NCBI GenBank assembly: GCA_039555135.1
Contig: CP114179.1
Location: 2,728,001 to 2,792,000 of the forward strand
Direction: 5' to 3'
DNA: 64,000 nucleotides
Origin: Phycisphaeraceae bacterium D3-23
GTDB taxonomy: Bacteria; Planctomycetota; Phycisphaerae; Phycisphaerales; Phycisphaeraceae
The notes under the pieces: generated by a model
Databases searched by the model: none
What the model was told of the DNA's origin: nothing
Seen by the model: the letters and a program-made list of their open reading frames with translations, nothing else
Shown here: one piece after another, positions 5,836 to 52,541 of the stretch
How the letters are laid out: each line of letters begins with the position of its first letter
Numbering within the stretch: the stretch's first letter is position 1
Program-made: the position numbers and the translations under genes

Positions 5836-6474
5836 TCAAACTTCCAAAAGGGAGTTGATCTGCGACATCAGCTTCTGGATGTCGAACGGTTTTTTGATAA
5901 ACGCGTCGGCGCCGGCTTCGAGCAGCCCGTCGACCTCGCTCTGCTCGACCACGCCCGAGACAATCACGACGCGCATCGACTGCAGGTCTTTGTTCTCGCG
6001 CACGGTCTTGCACACGACGTTGCCATTGACATCCGGGAGCATGTAGTCGAGCACCATCAGGTCGGGCTTGAACTCGGCGGACTGCACACCGGCGTCGTAG
6101 CCCGTGCTCGCGGTGCGGACCTCGAAGCGGTCGTCGCGCGACAGCACATCCTCAAGCAACTCAACGATGCGCGGGTCGTCGTCGACGACGAGGACCTTCT
6201 TGCGCCCCTGCGCGAAGTCGTCGACTGGGATGTCGTTGTGCTTCATGAAGCGGATGAGCTCTTCGCGCGGGATGCGTCGGAAACGCGAGCCCGGGACACG
6301 GAAGCCCTTGAGCCGGCCCTTGTCGAAGCAGCGGATGATCGTCTGCTGCGAGACCTTGCAGACCTCGGCGGCTTCCCCCGTGGTAAAAATCTGCTTGTCG
6401 AACAGATCGGCCTTGCCGTTCTTGCCCGACTGCGAGGTACCGTTGCTGCCGTTGCTGCCGTTGGTGGCACTCAT
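5836..6474 (-). CDS. HTH (excisionase/MerR-like)-receiver response regulator
   Basis: 212 residues. A Ser/Asn/Gly-rich linker (1-22) is followed by an excisionase-type winged helix (about 27-78: FTTGEAAEVCKVSQQTIIR...GSRFRRIP). A receiver domain (about 92-210) follows, with the acidic cluster LVVDDD, phospho-acceptor near Asp142 in MVLDYMLPD, and the conserved lysine in FIKKPF. The order HTH then receiver is the reverse of the common receiver-effector layout. It is the first gene of a three-gene minus-strand signalling run and is the best candidate DNA-binding output of the neighbouring kinase. Confidence 0.88.
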   Translation of the reverse strand: MSATNGSNGSNGTSQSGKNGKADLFDKQIFTTGEAAEVCKVSQQTIIRCFDKGRLKGFRVPGSRFRRIPREELIRFMKHNDIPVDDFAQGRKKVLVVDDDPRIVELLEDVLSRDDRFEVRTASTGYDAGVQSAEFKPDLMVLDYMLPDVNGNVVCKTVRENKDLQSMRVVIVSGVVEQSEVDGLLEAGADAFIKKPFDIQKLMSQINSLLEV

Positions 6475-6704
6475 GTGAAACCCCTGATCTGACGCCTGGT
6501 CGCCCCAATGCTCGGCCTAACTCCAGTGCTGGAAAACACTTCCATGCACACCCGCCGACGGGCTTACCCAGTTTGTCCAGCTTTACATCGGGGCCATCTG
6601 GGGCCGACTTAAGGGTAGGTGGGGTTGGACGGGTGGAATTGGTCAGGGGGGAATTCGATGGCCCGTGCCCACGATCGATGGGCGCGGGCTTCTTGGCATC
6701 AGCG

Positions 6705-30290: not shown

Positions 30291-32501
30291 ATGCGCGTCC
30301 TGTCACTCGCCTTGCTCTTGGCGTTCATCTCACCCCTCGCCAATGCCCAGGCCGACAACCCGCCCAACGTCGTGCTGTTCATGGTCGATGACTTTGGCTG
30401 GACCGACTGGCAGTACGACGCCGTACTCAACCCGACCGGCAGCATGCTGTACGAGACGCCCAACATGCTGCGTCTTGCGCAGCACGGGGTGAACTTCACC
30501 AACGCCTACTCCGCGAATGCCGTGTGCTCGCCCTCCCGCGCGGCTGTGATAACGGGGAAAGACCCCGCCCGAATACGCATCACCGACTGGATCCCCGGCG
30601 GCAACTGGCAGCACCCCACCCTGCAAGACCCGAGCGATTGGGACGTCACGCTGAACGACAGCGAAACTACACTGGCCGAAGCGCTCCAAGAGAATGGCTA
30701 TGACACCGTGTTTATTGGGAAATGGCACCTCGGGACGAACGGGAGTGACGCCGCGAACCCCTTTCAGAACGGATTCGATGTCAACATCGCTGGCGGACAC
30801 CGCGGAAATCCGGGAAACTTCTTCGCGGGCGATGATCGCAGCTTCAACCTGCCCGGCATGGCATCGAACTATCAGCCAAGTGCTTATCTTCCCGATGTAC
30901 TATCTTCGGACGCGATCCGATACCTTCAGGAACGGCCTTCAAGGAACGAAACCGACCCATTCTTTCTGTACATGTCACACTATGCAGTGCACACGCCGAT
31001 CCAGGCCCCGGCCGCCACGGTCCAGTACTACCAGAACAAGCTGGACGCCGGAGGAGACTTTGGGGAACATGATCATGCCACCTACGCCGCGATGGTCCAC
31101 CACGTCGATCTGGCGCTAGGCAGACTGATGGATGAGCTTGAGGCGCAGGGGATACTCGATGAGACCCTGATTATCCTTGCGTCCGACAATGGCGGGCTCT
31201 GGGCCGCACAGGGTGACCCGACTTCAAACGCCCCGCTCCGAGCCGGGAAAGGCAGCTGGTACGAGGGCGGAATCCGAACACCATTGATCGTCGCGTGGCC
31301 CGGCAACAACGCTTTCGTGCAGGGTGTTCTCTGCGACGATGTCATCATCGGCCACGATATCTACACAACCGTTCTTGAACTCACCGGCACCCAAGGCAGC
31401 CCGGCACATAACGCAAGCACAGACGGCGTCAGCTTTGCGCCGGGCTTGTGTGGTGAACAGCACGATCGTGGCACAACCTTCTGGCACTACCCGCATATTG
31501 CCGACCAGGACCATGCAAGCGAACTTGTATCGGGCGGAACCTATCTGACGGCCGCAAGGTCGGGTGACTGGAAGCTCATGTACTTTTATGCTGACCAGTC
31601 CTGGGAGCTATACAACCTCTCCGAAGACCTCGGCGAGACGACAAACCTCGCAGGGGAACACCCCGATATCGTCGCAACGCTCGGCCAGGAGATCGTTGAT
31701 TACCTGATTGAGATCGACGCACAACTCCCGGTTGATCAGGCGACAGGTGAGCCCGTCGCACCGCCTAGTATCGACCAGCTCGGCCTGGGTGACATCGACA
31801 GCGACAGCGTTTCCAACCATGGTGATGTCGAAATCCACTTGGCAAACAGCGCAGCCGATCCCGACGATTACCTCGCTCCACTGGCTGAGGAGTTGAGGAA
31901 GACCTGGCCCGACAACCGTACAGTCAATATCGTCTGCCACGGCCACAGTGTGCCTGCGGGCTACTTCCAGACACCGCGGGTCGATACGTTCAACAGCTAT
32001 CCCCACCTGATGCATGTAGGCCTGAATGAGCGGTACCCCAACGCCGTTATCAATGTCATCGTGACTGCGATCGGCGGGGAAGCATCTCCCGCAGGCGCAG
32101 CGCGCTTCGAGCGGGAGGTCTTGAACCATGACCCCGACCTGTTACTGATTGATTACGCATTGAACGACCGGGGCCAGGGGCTCGAACGATCCGAGGCAGC
32201 TTGGCGTGAGATGATCGAGGCCGCGTTAGAGCGCAACATCCCAATGATTCTGCTGACGCCAACCGCGGCGCTCCGCGCGGACTTGGCCGACCCTGATGAC
32301 CCTCTAAACCAGCACGCCGAACTGGTCCGAGCCCTCGCGAAAGAGTACGGCGTCGCGTTGGTGGATAGCTACGCCGGCTTCAAGCAGCACGTCGCGGACG
32401 GCGGGGACTTACTGGAACTCATGAGCCATGGTGTGCATCCCAACCGGGCCGGCCACGATCTCGTTGCCCAGCGCCTGCTGTGTTGGTTCCCGTCGGAGTA
32501 A
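30291..32501 (+). CDS. Sulfatase fused to an SGNH hydrolase
   Basis: 736 residues. Signal peptide, then a sulfatase domain (about 22-480) with VVLFMVDDFGWTD metal ligands, formylglycine site CSPSRAAVITGK, FIGKWHLG and second metal site ASDNGGLW. The C-terminal part (about 530-736) has SGNH blocks: I GHSVPAGYF, II IGGEAS, III DYALNDRG, V HGVHPNRAGHD. Together they suggest sulfate-ester and acyl-ester removal by one exported protein, fitting an acetylated, sulfated polysaccharide. GAAGGAG is before the start. It closes the prepilin operon and may share ECF control. Confidence 0.9.
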   Translation: MRVLSLALLLAFISPLANAQADNPPNVVLFMVDDFGWTDWQYDAVLNPTGSMLYETPNMLRLAQHGVNFTNAYSANAVCSPSRAAVITGKDPARIRITDWIPGGNWQHPTLQDPSDWDVTLNDSETTLAEALQENGYDTVFIGKWHLGTNGSDAANPFQNGFDVNIAGGHRGNPGNFFAGDDRSFNLPGMASNYQPSAYLPDVLSSDAIRYLQERPSRNETDPFFLYMSHYAVHTPIQAPAATVQYYQNKLDAGGDFGEHDHATYAAMVHHVDLALGRLMDELEAQGILDETLIILASDNGGLWAAQGDPTSNAPLRAGKGSWYEGGIRTPLIVAWPGNNAFVQGVLCDDVIIGHDIYTTVLELTGTQGSPAHNASTDGVSFAPGLCGEQHDRGTTFWHYPHIADQDHASELVSGGTYLTAARSGDWKLMYFYADQSWELYNLSEDLGETTNLAGEHPDIVATLGQEIVDYLIEIDAQLPVDQATGEPVAPPSIDQLGLGDIDSDSVSNHGDVEIHLANSAADPDDYLAPLAEELRKTWPDNRTVNIVCHGHSVPAGYFQTPRVDTFNSYPHLMHVGLNERYPNAVINVIVTAIGGEASPAGAARFEREVLNHDPDLLLIDYALNDRGQGLERSEAAWREMIEAALERNIPMILLTPTAALRADLADPDDPLNQHAELVRALAKEYGVALVDSYAGFKQHVADGGDLLELMSHGVHPNRAGHDLVAQRLLCWFPSE

Positions 32502-32573
32502 GAACTGAGTGCCCGTCAGAACTGTATGTGCACCACGAACGATATCGCTCTCTGGTCGCCGTAAGGCTTTCCG

Positions 32574-32854
32574 GCATACTCCCGAAGACATGCGGAGTGC
32601 TCAAGAGGAAGTGACGAGCGCACGGGCGGCTTCCTTGAGTACTCAGTAAGCATTGTTAAGCGCTCCGGAGAGCTTGCGGAGCGCTCACGGGTATTTGCGG
32701 AGCGCTCAAGAGCGTCTCTTGAGCGCTCAAGAGAGCTTGCGGAGTACTCAAGAAGGGCTCTTGAGCGCTCCAGAAGGTTTGGCGAGCGTTCAAACAAGTC
32801 TGCCGAGCGCTCCGGCGGCTCGTTGGAGCGCTCGTGAAAGAAGTAGGAGTACTC
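32574..32854. repeat. Exactly phased 21-bp array of palindromic octamers
   Basis: Thirteen octamers of type GAGCGCTC or GAGTACTC begin at 32595, 32616, 32637, 32658, 32679, 32700, 32721, 32742, 32763, 32784, 32805, 32826 and 32847: exactly every 21 bp. A degenerate fourteenth is at 32574. The 13-nt spacers vary but often contain AAGAG and CTTGCG. The TA-centred form is at 32637, 32742 and 32847, every fifth unit (105 bp). Period 21 is both two helical turns and seven codons; open frames through it encode ERS-type heptads on either strand because GAGCGCTC is its own reverse complement. No start codon or family supports a protein. Confidence 0.95.
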
Positions 32855-33200
32855 CGGGACGGCCTATTGCTCTGTTTCTTCGATGTTTTGCCGTGATTTG
32901 GGTGCGGTTTCACATGGCGCGAAGTGTGCATCGCGGTGCGGCTGGTAGGTTTGTGACGACTTTTTGGGTTGGGGGGTAAAGTCGGGTGGTGGGTGGTTCG
33001 ATGTCGGTACTGCCGCGCGGGTGTTCCGGGCGGCGGGATGGCCGGGGCGGCTTTTCCAGGGATTCTTCCGGTACTCACAATCGTTTTCTGGGTTTCCGTA
33101 TTCGCTCCCGGTCGTTCCGGGCGCGGGGTTCCTTTCGAACGTTTTCGCCCCGGGTCTTCCATCTCTACTTCTGCTCTTCCTTTATTCAAAGGAGTTTGCT
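32855..33200. other. Leader region before the 33201 gene
   Basis: No gene seen. It contains T-rich and GC-rich patches and ends in AAAGGAG 7 nt before the ATG at 33201. It may hold the promoter and 5' leader of that gene. Confidence 0.4.
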
Positions 33201-33887
33201 ATGTCTCGGACTTTTCTGCCATCACGCGAATCGGACCTTGTTATCTGGACGACGTCGTTCCAGTCGACCATCGTGTCGGCGGCGTCGGACTACGGGCTCA
33301 CCGACACGCAGGCGGGTGACTACACGACGACACAGAGCGCGTTCGTGTCGGCCCACCAAGTCGCCAACGACCCGATGACGCGGTCGCCCGGCAACATCGA
33401 GGCGAAGAACACCGCCAAGGATGCGCTAATCACGATGACGCGGGAGTTGGTGGATATCTGCCAGGCGTCGCCGGTGATGGACAACGATAAGCGTAAGGCG
33501 CTAGGCGTGACGATCCGCGACAACACGCCGACACCTGTGCCGGTCCCCAAGACCTCGCCGAACATCGACATCCTGTCGGTGGTCGGGTGGACCGTGGAAC
33601 TCCGGCTGCACAACGAGGATTCGACGAAGCGCGCCCGGCCCGACGGCGTGAAGGGCGCTACGGTGTTCAGTTATGTGGGCGAGACACCGCCGACGAGCGT
33701 GGACGATTGGAAGTTCGAGGGCAACATCTCGAAGACCGAGACGAAGGTCCACTTCCCCTCGACCCTCGCGGCGGGGACGAAGGTGTGGGTGACGGCGTTC
33801 TGGTTCAACACGACCAGCCAGAGCGGCCCTGCGGCCGCGCCCGTGAGCACGAACCTGCAAGGCGGGACCGTCGCGAAGGCGGCGTGA
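33201..33887 (+). CDS. Conserved-type protein with fibronectin-III-like end, unknown function
   Basis: 228 residues, ATG at 33201 with AAAGGAG. The N-terminal half is helical (SFQSTIVSAASDYGLTDTQ; ALITMTRELVDICQAS); the second half is beta-rich (DILSVVGWTVELRLHNED; YVGETPPTSVDDWKFEG; TKVWVTAFWFNTTSQSGPAAAPV), resembling a fibronectin type III fold. No signal peptide. I recall similar hypothetical proteins in planctomycetes but know no function. The following gene is a GNAT protein 134 nt downstream. Confidence 0.7.
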   Translation: MSRTFLPSRESDLVIWTTSFQSTIVSAASDYGLTDTQAGDYTTTQSAFVSAHQVANDPMTRSPGNIEAKNTAKDALITMTRELVDICQASPVMDNDKRKALGVTIRDNTPTPVPVPKTSPNIDILSVVGWTVELRLHNEDSTKRARPDGVKGATVFSYVGETPPTSVDDWKFEGNISKTETKVHFPSTLAAGTKVWVTAFWFNTTSQSGPAAAPVSTNLQGGTVAKAA

Positions 33888-34021: not shown

Positions 34022-35323
34022 ATGTCGGATGTAATTCGTGTGCTGAAAGATGTGGATGGGCAGGTTCCCGGGCCGCTACTACCTGTCCCCTCGCCGGAGC
34101 GGCTTTCCGGGGGCGCGGTGTCGATCCGGGACGCGGTGGAGAGCGACATCCCGTTTATCGATGCGTTGCAGAAGGCGAACAGCGCGGGGGTGGGGTTCAT
34201 GCATATGGCGACGCTGCAGGGGCACCTGGCGCAGGGGCATGTGCTCGTGGCCGAGCAAGTGAACAGTGAGCCGTCCACAGTGAATAGCCAAGGCCATGCC
34301 TCGCCTGTTCACTGTTCACCGGGCACTGTTCACTCACCGGCTTCGCCGGTCGGCTACTGCATCGGGGTGGACAAGTATTTCAAACGCGAGGATGTCGGGG
34401 TGATCTATCACATGAACATCGCCCCGGAACGGCGGCGGGGGCTCGTGGCGGCGGTGCTGTTGCGGGCCATGTTTGATCGCAGCGCGTACGGCGTGAAGCT
34501 GTATTGCTGCTGGTGCGCGCAGGACCTGTCGGCCAACCGGTTCTGGGAGGCGATGGGGTTTGTGCCTCTGGCGTTTCGGACGGGCAGCCGGAAGAAGTCG
34601 TGGAAGGGTGAGGACGGGGCGCGGCACAAGGGGCCTCGGATTCATATCTTTTGGCAGAAGCGGATTCGGGCGGGGGATGAGGGTCCGGGGGCGACGCCTT
34701 GGTGGTTCCCGTCGCAGACGGGGGGCGGGGCGATGCGTGAGGACCGGATCGTGTTGCCGATCCCGCCCGGGACGCATTGGTCCGACGCGAAGCCCGCCGT
34801 TCTTCCGGGGGTCGATGTGGTGTTTGGCGAGATCGCCGACGAGCGGGAGGAGGCGTTGAAGTTGATCGCAGGGGCCGAGGGGTCAGGGGCCAAGGGGCTG
34901 AGTGCGGAAGAGAAAGCGGCGCGGAAGGCGGAGCGCAAGGCGAAGCGGGAGCAGGCGGAGCGCGAACGGGCCGAGGCGGCGGAGCGCGCGGCGAGTGTCG
35001 CATCCGGCGGCCTGCACTTTGGCCCCCCGGAAGCGGATTCACCTAACGGCAAGTCGGACGCCGCGAAGCAGGCGCGGAAGGAAGCAGAGAAGGCGGCGCA
35101 GAAGAAGGTGTCCAAGAAGAACGACCCCCAGCTGGTCGCGATGGCGCGGGAGCTGCGGGACCGTTGGCAGGAGCATGTTGTCGCCCAGCCGGGCATGATC
35201 GAGGACCGTCGGCAAGGGAAGTACGACGTGAGCCGGTTGATTGAAGCTTCTCCGCCACAAGTGGAGGCGGTCGAGATCGTCTCGGAGGTTCAGGCGGAGC
35301 CGAAGCGGCTGGATGCGGCGTAG
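34022..35323 (+). CDS. GNAT acetyltransferase-like protein with basic coiled-coil tail
   Basis: 433 residues, ATG at 34022, CGGGAG 9 nt before. The N-terminal half resembles a GNAT acetyltransferase: AVESDIPFIDALQKANSAG, then the acetyl-CoA-type strand VIYHMNIAPERRRG and VLLRAMFDRSAYGVKLYCCWC, then NRFWEAMGFVPLAFRTGSR. A highly charged Lys/Arg/Glu coiled coil (about 290-400) follows. Residues about 80-106 (SEPSTVNSQGHASPVHCSPG...) are encoded by an intergenic-type palindrome that interrupts the GNAT domain in frame. Substrate unknown. Confidence 0.75.
   Translation: MSDVIRVLKDVDGQVPGPLLPVPSPERLSGGAVSIRDAVESDIPFIDALQKANSAGVGFMHMATLQGHLAQGHVLVAEQVNSEPSTVNSQGHASPVHCSPGTVHSPASPVGYCIGVDKYFKREDVGVIYHMNIAPERRRGLVAAVLLRAMFDRSAYGVKLYCCWCAQDLSANRFWEAMGFVPLAFRTGSRKKSWKGEDGARHKGPRIHIFWQKRIRAGDEGPGATPWWFPSQTGGGAMREDRIVLPIPPGTHWSDAKPAVLPGVDVVFGEIADEREEALKLIAGAEGSGAKGLSAEEKAARKAERKAKREQAERERAEAAERAASVASGGLHFGPPEADSPNGKSDAAKQARKEAEKAAQKKVSKKNDPQLVAMARELRDRWQEHVVAQPGMIEDRRQGKYDVSRLIEASPPQVEAVEIVSEVQAEPKRLDAA
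34259..34337. repeat. GTGAACAGTG palindrome inside a coding region
   Basis: Left arm 34259-34287 (GTGAACAGTGAGCCG...CAGTGAATAG) and right arm 34304-34337 are imperfect reverse complements of the GTGAACAGTG family. The same family occurs in the tRNA array at 57176-57252. Here it lies inside an open reading frame without breaking it. Confidence 0.85.
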
Positions 35324-52495: not shown

Positions 52496-52541
52496 GAAGT
52501 CCTGAGTCCTGAGTCCTGAGTCTTGAGTCTTGAGTAGGGTG
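52496..52541. repeat. GAGTCCTGAGTC-type tandem words
   Basis: Degenerate tandem copies of a CTGAGTC/TTGAGTC word (six within 46 nt). Related words occur at 54956-55023 and 57343-57413, all between tRNA genes. Confidence 0.75.

Follow-up and report, generated by a model that had tools for sequence, protein, structure and literature searches.

Bacterial tandem repeats that combine a constant unit size (20–21 or 52 nt) with variable sequence have been described by Subirana and Messeguer and are unexplained, as set out in part of the text of PMC8161180, PMC6749651 and PMC8625621. The portion of PMC8161180 used here states that these repeats are mostly non-coding, that several occur per genome and that their size is constant between species, and it describes the 52-nt class as carrying short motifs plus their reverse within one repeat. 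In the same portion, the authors note two helical turns and propose a DNA-polymerizing protein or small RNAs (PMC8161180). By word search, terms for upstream, promoter, palindrome, hypothetical and gene family are absent from the searched text of PMC8161180. Array A, described here, is a gene-linked, symmetric variant of this known, unexplained kind of repeat and lies beside an undescribed protein family. It is located in the window, the whole stretch of DNA that was analyzed (64,000 nt from Phycisphaeraceae bacterium D3-23, GCA_039555135.1, contig CP114179.1, positions 2,728,001–2,792,000, forward strand). Array A resembles the constant-size repeats in having at least four units (13 in this case) of a constant 21 bp, in that arrays of the same genome share their size and differ in sequence and in that it and its relatives lie outside protein-coding genes as judged by frame and period-3 tests. 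Unlike the published repeats, many of the arrays reported here sit upstream of one gene family and have dyad-symmetric units, and those of Bacteroidota sit downstream of promoter motifs. These repeats were an enigma with no gene partner when published; here many 21-bp arrays are linked to one particular undescribed protein family, and this link makes the question of why 21 bp a testable one. We found no report of such an array–gene link in the literature searched, an absence that is weak evidence.

The direct repeats of iterons and of ParR- and TubR-type centromere arrays are helically phased, which suits them to cooperative binding. Array A shares their helical phasing but differs in its surroundings, as no replication or partition gene was present among the neighbors checked in Pfam (sulfatase/GDSL, undescribed family, GNAT-like and AraC-type). 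The arrays also differ from iterons and centromeres in having many chromosomal copies of unrelated sequence and in accompanying a protein that gave no match in plasmid and phage protein searches.

Array A (32595–32854, unstranded) consists of 13 palindromic octamers of the GAGYRCTC type at a 21-bp period, separated by variable 13-bp spacers. The octamers start at 32595 + 21n (n = 0–12, the last at 32847) with zero indels, which confirms the thirteen evenly spaced sites reported by the sequence-only reading. Ten octamers match GAGYRCTC exactly (GAGCGCTC in six, GAGTACTC in three and GAGTGCTC in one), and the three at 32616, 32658 and 32784 have one mismatch. A degenerate 14th unit, GCATACTC, precedes them in register at 32574–32594 with two mismatches. 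With up to one mismatch allowed, the longest 21-bp-phased run was 13 in the window versus 2 in 100 dinucleotide-Markov copies. The spacers vary, as that reading had also stated, with a between-unit identity of 39% against 84% in the cores. When the whole genome (a single contig of 4.62 Mb) was searched for pairs of exact sites spaced by 21 bp, one further place emerged, array B, in which 12 units with the same core occupy positions 921540–921789 of the genome (L011:6541-6790), with 88% identity between cores and 40% between spacers. Array B is an orphan whose next downstream gene is of the DUF262/GmrSD type (L011 7111–8781), and a second, GC-rich 21-bp repeat with a different core lies just before array B (L011, about 6286–6490).

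Both arrays appear to preserve symmetry. Across their 25 cores, the central dinucleotide was CG in 19, TA in 5, TG in 1 and CA in 0 (Fisher p = 1.1 × 10−4, possibly inflated by shared descent among units); because the central pairs are CG or TA and rarely TG or CA, the palindrome is kept rather than the letter. The spacer columns mirror the complement of their partner column in composition (symmetry r = 0.52 for array A and 0.73 for array B), and none of 5,000 column permutations gave values as high. Spacer pairing within single units showed no excess over shuffles in either array; the symmetry of the unit therefore lies in its consensus, which has two dyads separated by 10.5 bp. Inversion of units between palindromes gave weak signs in arrays A and B (best p 0.04–0.12). 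Some units of another array, L203, look flipped. A TA-type core returns at each fifth unit (105 bp), in units 3, 8 and 13 of array A and units 6 and 11 of array B.

The sequence-only reading had treated absence of phasing in related genomes as evidence against a phased array; such absence was found for paired GAGYRCTC sites at the array A spacing (none in 59 of 60 relatives), whereas 21-bp phasing with other sequences proved common upstream of homologs of the next gene. The remaining relative has one single pair, at a locus (L013) upstream of a distant member of the downstream gene family that has a 21-bp array. A three-site pattern with up to two mismatches occurred in 6 of 397 class genomes and a reversed control pattern in 5, so that this search alone is not clean; only the real pattern gave runs of many overlapping matches, in the D3-23 genome and two others (G199 and G281). 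Across 84,980 species, the exact three-site pattern was found in 94 stretches. We examined 83 loci, comprising 80 of these stretches and three viral ones, and searched the other 14 (L098–L111) for the gene family only. Most of the 83 are ordinary 21-bp tandem repeats from many phyla, and none of the 52 loci with at least five units had spacers as divergent as those of array A (lowest identity 0.43). The Nitrosomonadales MAG A14_bin-0786 contains 53 phased GAGYRCTC pairs; the family gene is absent at the loci inspected there, leaving their arrays orphan. The reading frames after two of these arrays (L033 and L046) share similar ends. Orphan arrays without a family gene are thus represented by array B and by Nitrosomonadales and Acidobacteria loci. 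The array at L166 has a single location in its own genome, so an additional orphan copy is not generally present.

Downstream of array A, a gap of 346 bp (32855–33200, forward strand) leads to a gene for a 228-residue protein (33201–33887, forward strand) with a helical N-terminal half and an Fn3-like C-terminal half. AAAGGAG stands shortly 5′ of its ATG and is possibly a ribosome site. Searches with this protein against Pfam, NCBIfam and PHROG gave nothing above the cut-off, and a PDB sequence search gave one non-significant match. An AlphaFold2 model (mean pLDDT of 90.9) predicts helices at residues 10–101 and an Fn3-like sandwich at residues 121–218, the latter matching the Fn3 fold with Z up to 12.0 over 92 residues (rmsd of 2.0). 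The resemblance to Fn3 domain proteins is confined to this predicted C-terminal half; the N-terminal four-helix bundle and the lack of any sequence family above the cut-off set the protein apart. Modeled alone, the N-terminal half had a pLDDT of 91.0. Its fold comparison against 210 chains, a list outside which other families remain conceivable, returned helical-bundle matches only (best Z of 7.7 over 85 residues, rmsd of 4.5; no chain reached Z of 8), and Foldseek gave E values above 2. The structural matches, among them the focal-adhesion FAT domain, talin bundles and an S23-family four-helix protein, score as common helical bundles do, and no DNA-binding fold was among those from the 210 chains. 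On these sequence searches and predicted models, the gene belongs to an undescribed family that combines a four-helix bundle with an Fn3-like domain. The locus also differs from known anti-phage defense systems in that no PADLOC model (E of 0.01) matched the window family protein, a Bacteroidota member or the GNAT protein.

The family gene is followed by a gene for a GNAT-like acetyltransferase (34022–35323, forward strand, 433 residues), whose best Pfam score is below the cut-off in the window and above it in a sister copy. A GNAT-like gene follows the family gene at 14 of 23 planctomycete loci examined and at none of eight Bacteroidota loci (two of them short). The GNAT-like frames contain short internal repeats, of the TTCACTG type in the window and VNP repeats at L281. 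Upstream of array A, a gene for a sulfatase fused to a GDSL-type esterase domain (30291–32501, forward strand, 736 residues) probably lies outside the cassette. Ahead of it stand three tandem genes whose start is pilin-like.

The family is multi-copy and patchy. There are 11 matches at ten loci in the D3-23 genome, and the highest copy number, 27 matches, was reached in a 2.2-Mb Dysgonamonadaceae genome. The family was present in 16 of 24 genomes chosen for bearing arrays, in 29 of 120 class genomes (some matches being weak or partial) and in 3 of 16 genomes of one Bacteroidota family. A genome of the same order (G046) had fifteen weak matches, all confined to the N-terminal part of the family profile, which suggests a related branch with a different C-terminal part. 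Weak members in a Spartobacteria genome carry strong arrays (L197 and L210), and one in a Nitrosomonadales genome has a weak array (L196). Another weak member (L212, G438:C18:446-1060) is preceded by an array with a period of 22 bp (44 bp) rather than 21 bp; because its protein was found in its own genome only among the 31 searched, this array cannot be generalized.

The association of arrays with this gene family is the main finding here; the sequence-only reading, which rightly described the array, had missed it. A tblastn search with 33201–33887 against the same-core loci identified L042, L038 and L087, with an array just upstream of each homolog, and profile searches added L062, L102 and L013 to the array loci with family members. 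Among 98 deduplicated regions upstream of family genes, a tally biased by the many Bacteroidota loci that come from genomes picked for GAGYRCTC arrays, the best repeat lag was 21, 42 or 63 in 86, and 79 contained strong arrays (identity of at least 0.55 over 105 bp). Multiples of 20 and of 22 were each the best lag in 3 of the 98. The tally omits L224 (whose upstream sequence is too short), L174 (which shares an identical upstream region with L176) and the repeat entries L183, L184 and L186 (of L042, L038 and L062, respectively). None of 300 random window segments reached 0.55, with a multiple of 21 as the best lag in 18; among downstream segments from 18 family loci, 2 of 54 reached 0.55.

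Strong arrays were also frequent in genomes that had not been selected for arrays. In two Bacteroidota genomes, drawn from the family of a genome bearing GAGYRCTC arrays, they were present at 9 of 11 loci, namely at all eight near-full-length genes and one truncated gene (L267), while the two array-less loci (L262 and L269) are fragments. Planctomycetes of the host family other than D3-23 had strong arrays at 10 of 17 genes; these are 17 of the 21 matches outside the D3-23 genome, and two of the 17, L174 and L176, share one upstream region. The corresponding count was 9 of 20 genes in further planctomycetes of the class, leaving 7 of the 17 and 11 of the 20 planctomycete genes without a strong array. 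In the D3-23 genome itself, 9 of 10 family loci have a strong array. As read from these sequence comparisons, the link is strong, extends over several phyla and is not universal. At L174 and L176 (G002), the upstream stretch and the first ~50 residues are identical and then diverge, which looks like a gene-conversion tract.

The properties of 67 clear arrays were compared. They have a median of 11 units, and their end lies at a median of 90 bp from the ATG, the distance usually being larger in planctomycetes. Dyad symmetry was significant (p < 0.05) in 49 of the 67, which backs the earlier suggestion that the sites share one face of the DNA, 21 bp being two helical turns. By eye, one array (L244) has an apparent 1-bp slip; a strict slip scan of all 67 found none. 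The sequences of the arrays are largely unrelated, with only 6 of 2,211 consensus pairs alike at 16 or more of 21 positions and a mean match of 9.9/21 within and 9.4/21 between genomes. Two proteins that are 93% identical (L236 and L237) have unrelated arrays. Over 222 same-genome pairs, array similarity hardly tracked protein similarity, with a Spearman coefficient of 0.10 for the N-terminal half (p 0.13) and 0.13 for the C-terminal half (p 0.045). Upstream of L225, two or more different 21-bp arrays stand in series over ~900 bp with a promoter-like motif between them.

We consider the chances about even that array A is a non-coding, helically phased, symmetric cis element of a cassette. The cassette would consist of a 21-bp array, then the four-helix/Fn3 gene and, often in planctomycetes, a GNAT gene. 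Array A would act as double-stranded DNA, a point that is less certain than the transcribed leader in Bacteroidota. A putative symmetric dimeric protein would take one dyad per two turns on a single helix face, and the dimers would form a cooperative row on the leader DNA and so control transcription of the cassette. Double-stranded geometry with one symmetric site per two turns is suggested because the period is fixed at 21 bp while the sequence is free and the dyads are symmetric. The encoded family protein is a natural candidate for the reader. That it reads specific sequences is not obvious given the unrelated arrays of L236 and L237; as unrelated arrays can accompany near-identical paralogs, spacing and symmetry probably matter more to the reader than letters do, or its specificity shifts with few residues. 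The points against a row of dimers on DNA include the genes that lack a strong array, the patchy occurrence of the gene, the orphan arrays and the chance level of pairing at the dyad centre. More tentatively, and at somewhat less than even chances, period and symmetry rather than sequence would be the signal, for a nucleoprotein lattice or in the transcript itself, and private, fast-turnover leader arrays would mark an undescribed multi-copy cassette in several phyla. Should a cassette read by period and symmetry prove true, orphan 20–21-nt arrays of bacteria would represent either its targets or what remains of it.

The main rival, which we regard as possible but unlikely, is that the array acts as RNA. 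Transcribed within the leader, it would form a string of short hairpins (arm, loop, arm, loop), and this string would govern how the mRNA of the gene is translated or how stable it is, or would be bound by the encoded protein. TAnnTTTG is the consensus of the Bacteroidota −7 motif. Within 150 bp upstream of the arrays, counted over 48 arrays of Bacteroidota, it occurred 16 times, versus 3.3 expected from shuffled letters, compared with 3 occurrences inside the arrays (4.3 expected) and 2 between array and ATG (1.3 expected); L209 was left out of these counts, and its inclusion leaves them unchanged. Because the motifs cluster just upstream, the Bacteroidota arrays are probably transcribed and lie within a leader. 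In the window, 32400–33260 gave no match to a sigma-70-like promoter, and no promoter was placed. Hairpins are also favored by the distribution of complementarity, which does not exceed chance at the dyad centre itself but is strong at a distance of 3–5 bases, as with loops, and by weak covariation within units (1,061 paired versus 1,020.7, s.d. 13.1). On either strand, array A outperforms its shuffles in folding (z of −7.0 and −7.5), although palindromic repeats yield such folding by construction. Against hairpins, an RNA does not require a period of 21 in most arrays irrespective of sequence, and the perfect palindromes present in some units (GAGCGCTC in the window and TTCGGGTGCGCACCCGAA in L201) leave no loop. 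The missing within-unit spacer pairing of arrays A and B and the absence of an Rfam match in 32400–33300 point the same way.

Neutral minisatellites, that is, functionless 21-bp repeats that arise and drift beside the family for mutational reasons, are improbable. The fast turnover of sequence, the orphan arrays and the 11 of 20 sampled planctomycete genes without a strong array would fit such drift. It does not account for upstream placement at one gene family across phyla, for the constant period and the symmetry in 49 of 67 arrays or for the difference between cores (84–88% identity) and spacers (39–40%) in arrays A and B.

A heptad-repeat protein or peptide (ERS repeats) as the product of the array is very doubtful, although 21 nt is seven codons. 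In array A, the sense GAG frame contains stops (TGA at 32835, TAG at 32844), as does the sense SA frame (TAA at 32647); the sole frame open across all 13 units is antisense (115 residues) and has no ATG or GTG before residue 70. All 25 units of arrays A and B have G as the third base of GAG, and the synonymous A never occurs. Neither codon-like, period-3 variability nor a conserved reading frame with a start was found through the 67 related arrays, of which seven have no open frame on either strand, and the 22-bp array of L212 is incompatible with heptads. A sense frame was open in 53 of the 67 arrays versus 42.7 (s.d. 2.9) in column-order shuffles that do not preserve dinucleotides, with none of 200 as high; for the antisense frame, the count was 50 versus 44.9 (p 0.065). 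As judged from these frames, the arrays are probably not part of a protein-coding gene, the excess of open sense frames being the one result against this. The sequence-only reading had likewise disfavored a heptad protein, which we reject on the stops, the missing starts, the lack of a synonymous GAA and the absent period-3 signal. Equally improbable is a row of operators for a LacI-family repressor: the eight-base core GAGCGCTC also forms the middle of the CebR box and the ideal lac operator, and paper titles tied to the string include a LacI promoter and Streptomyces scabies/CebE, but the bases outside the core vary, sister genes have arrays with unrelated cores and thirteen phased copies are unlike LacI-family operators in number and phasing.

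TRF listed no other 21-bp arrays in the window. A tandem repeat of seven bases, AGTCCTG, occurs at 52498–52535 in 5.4 copies.
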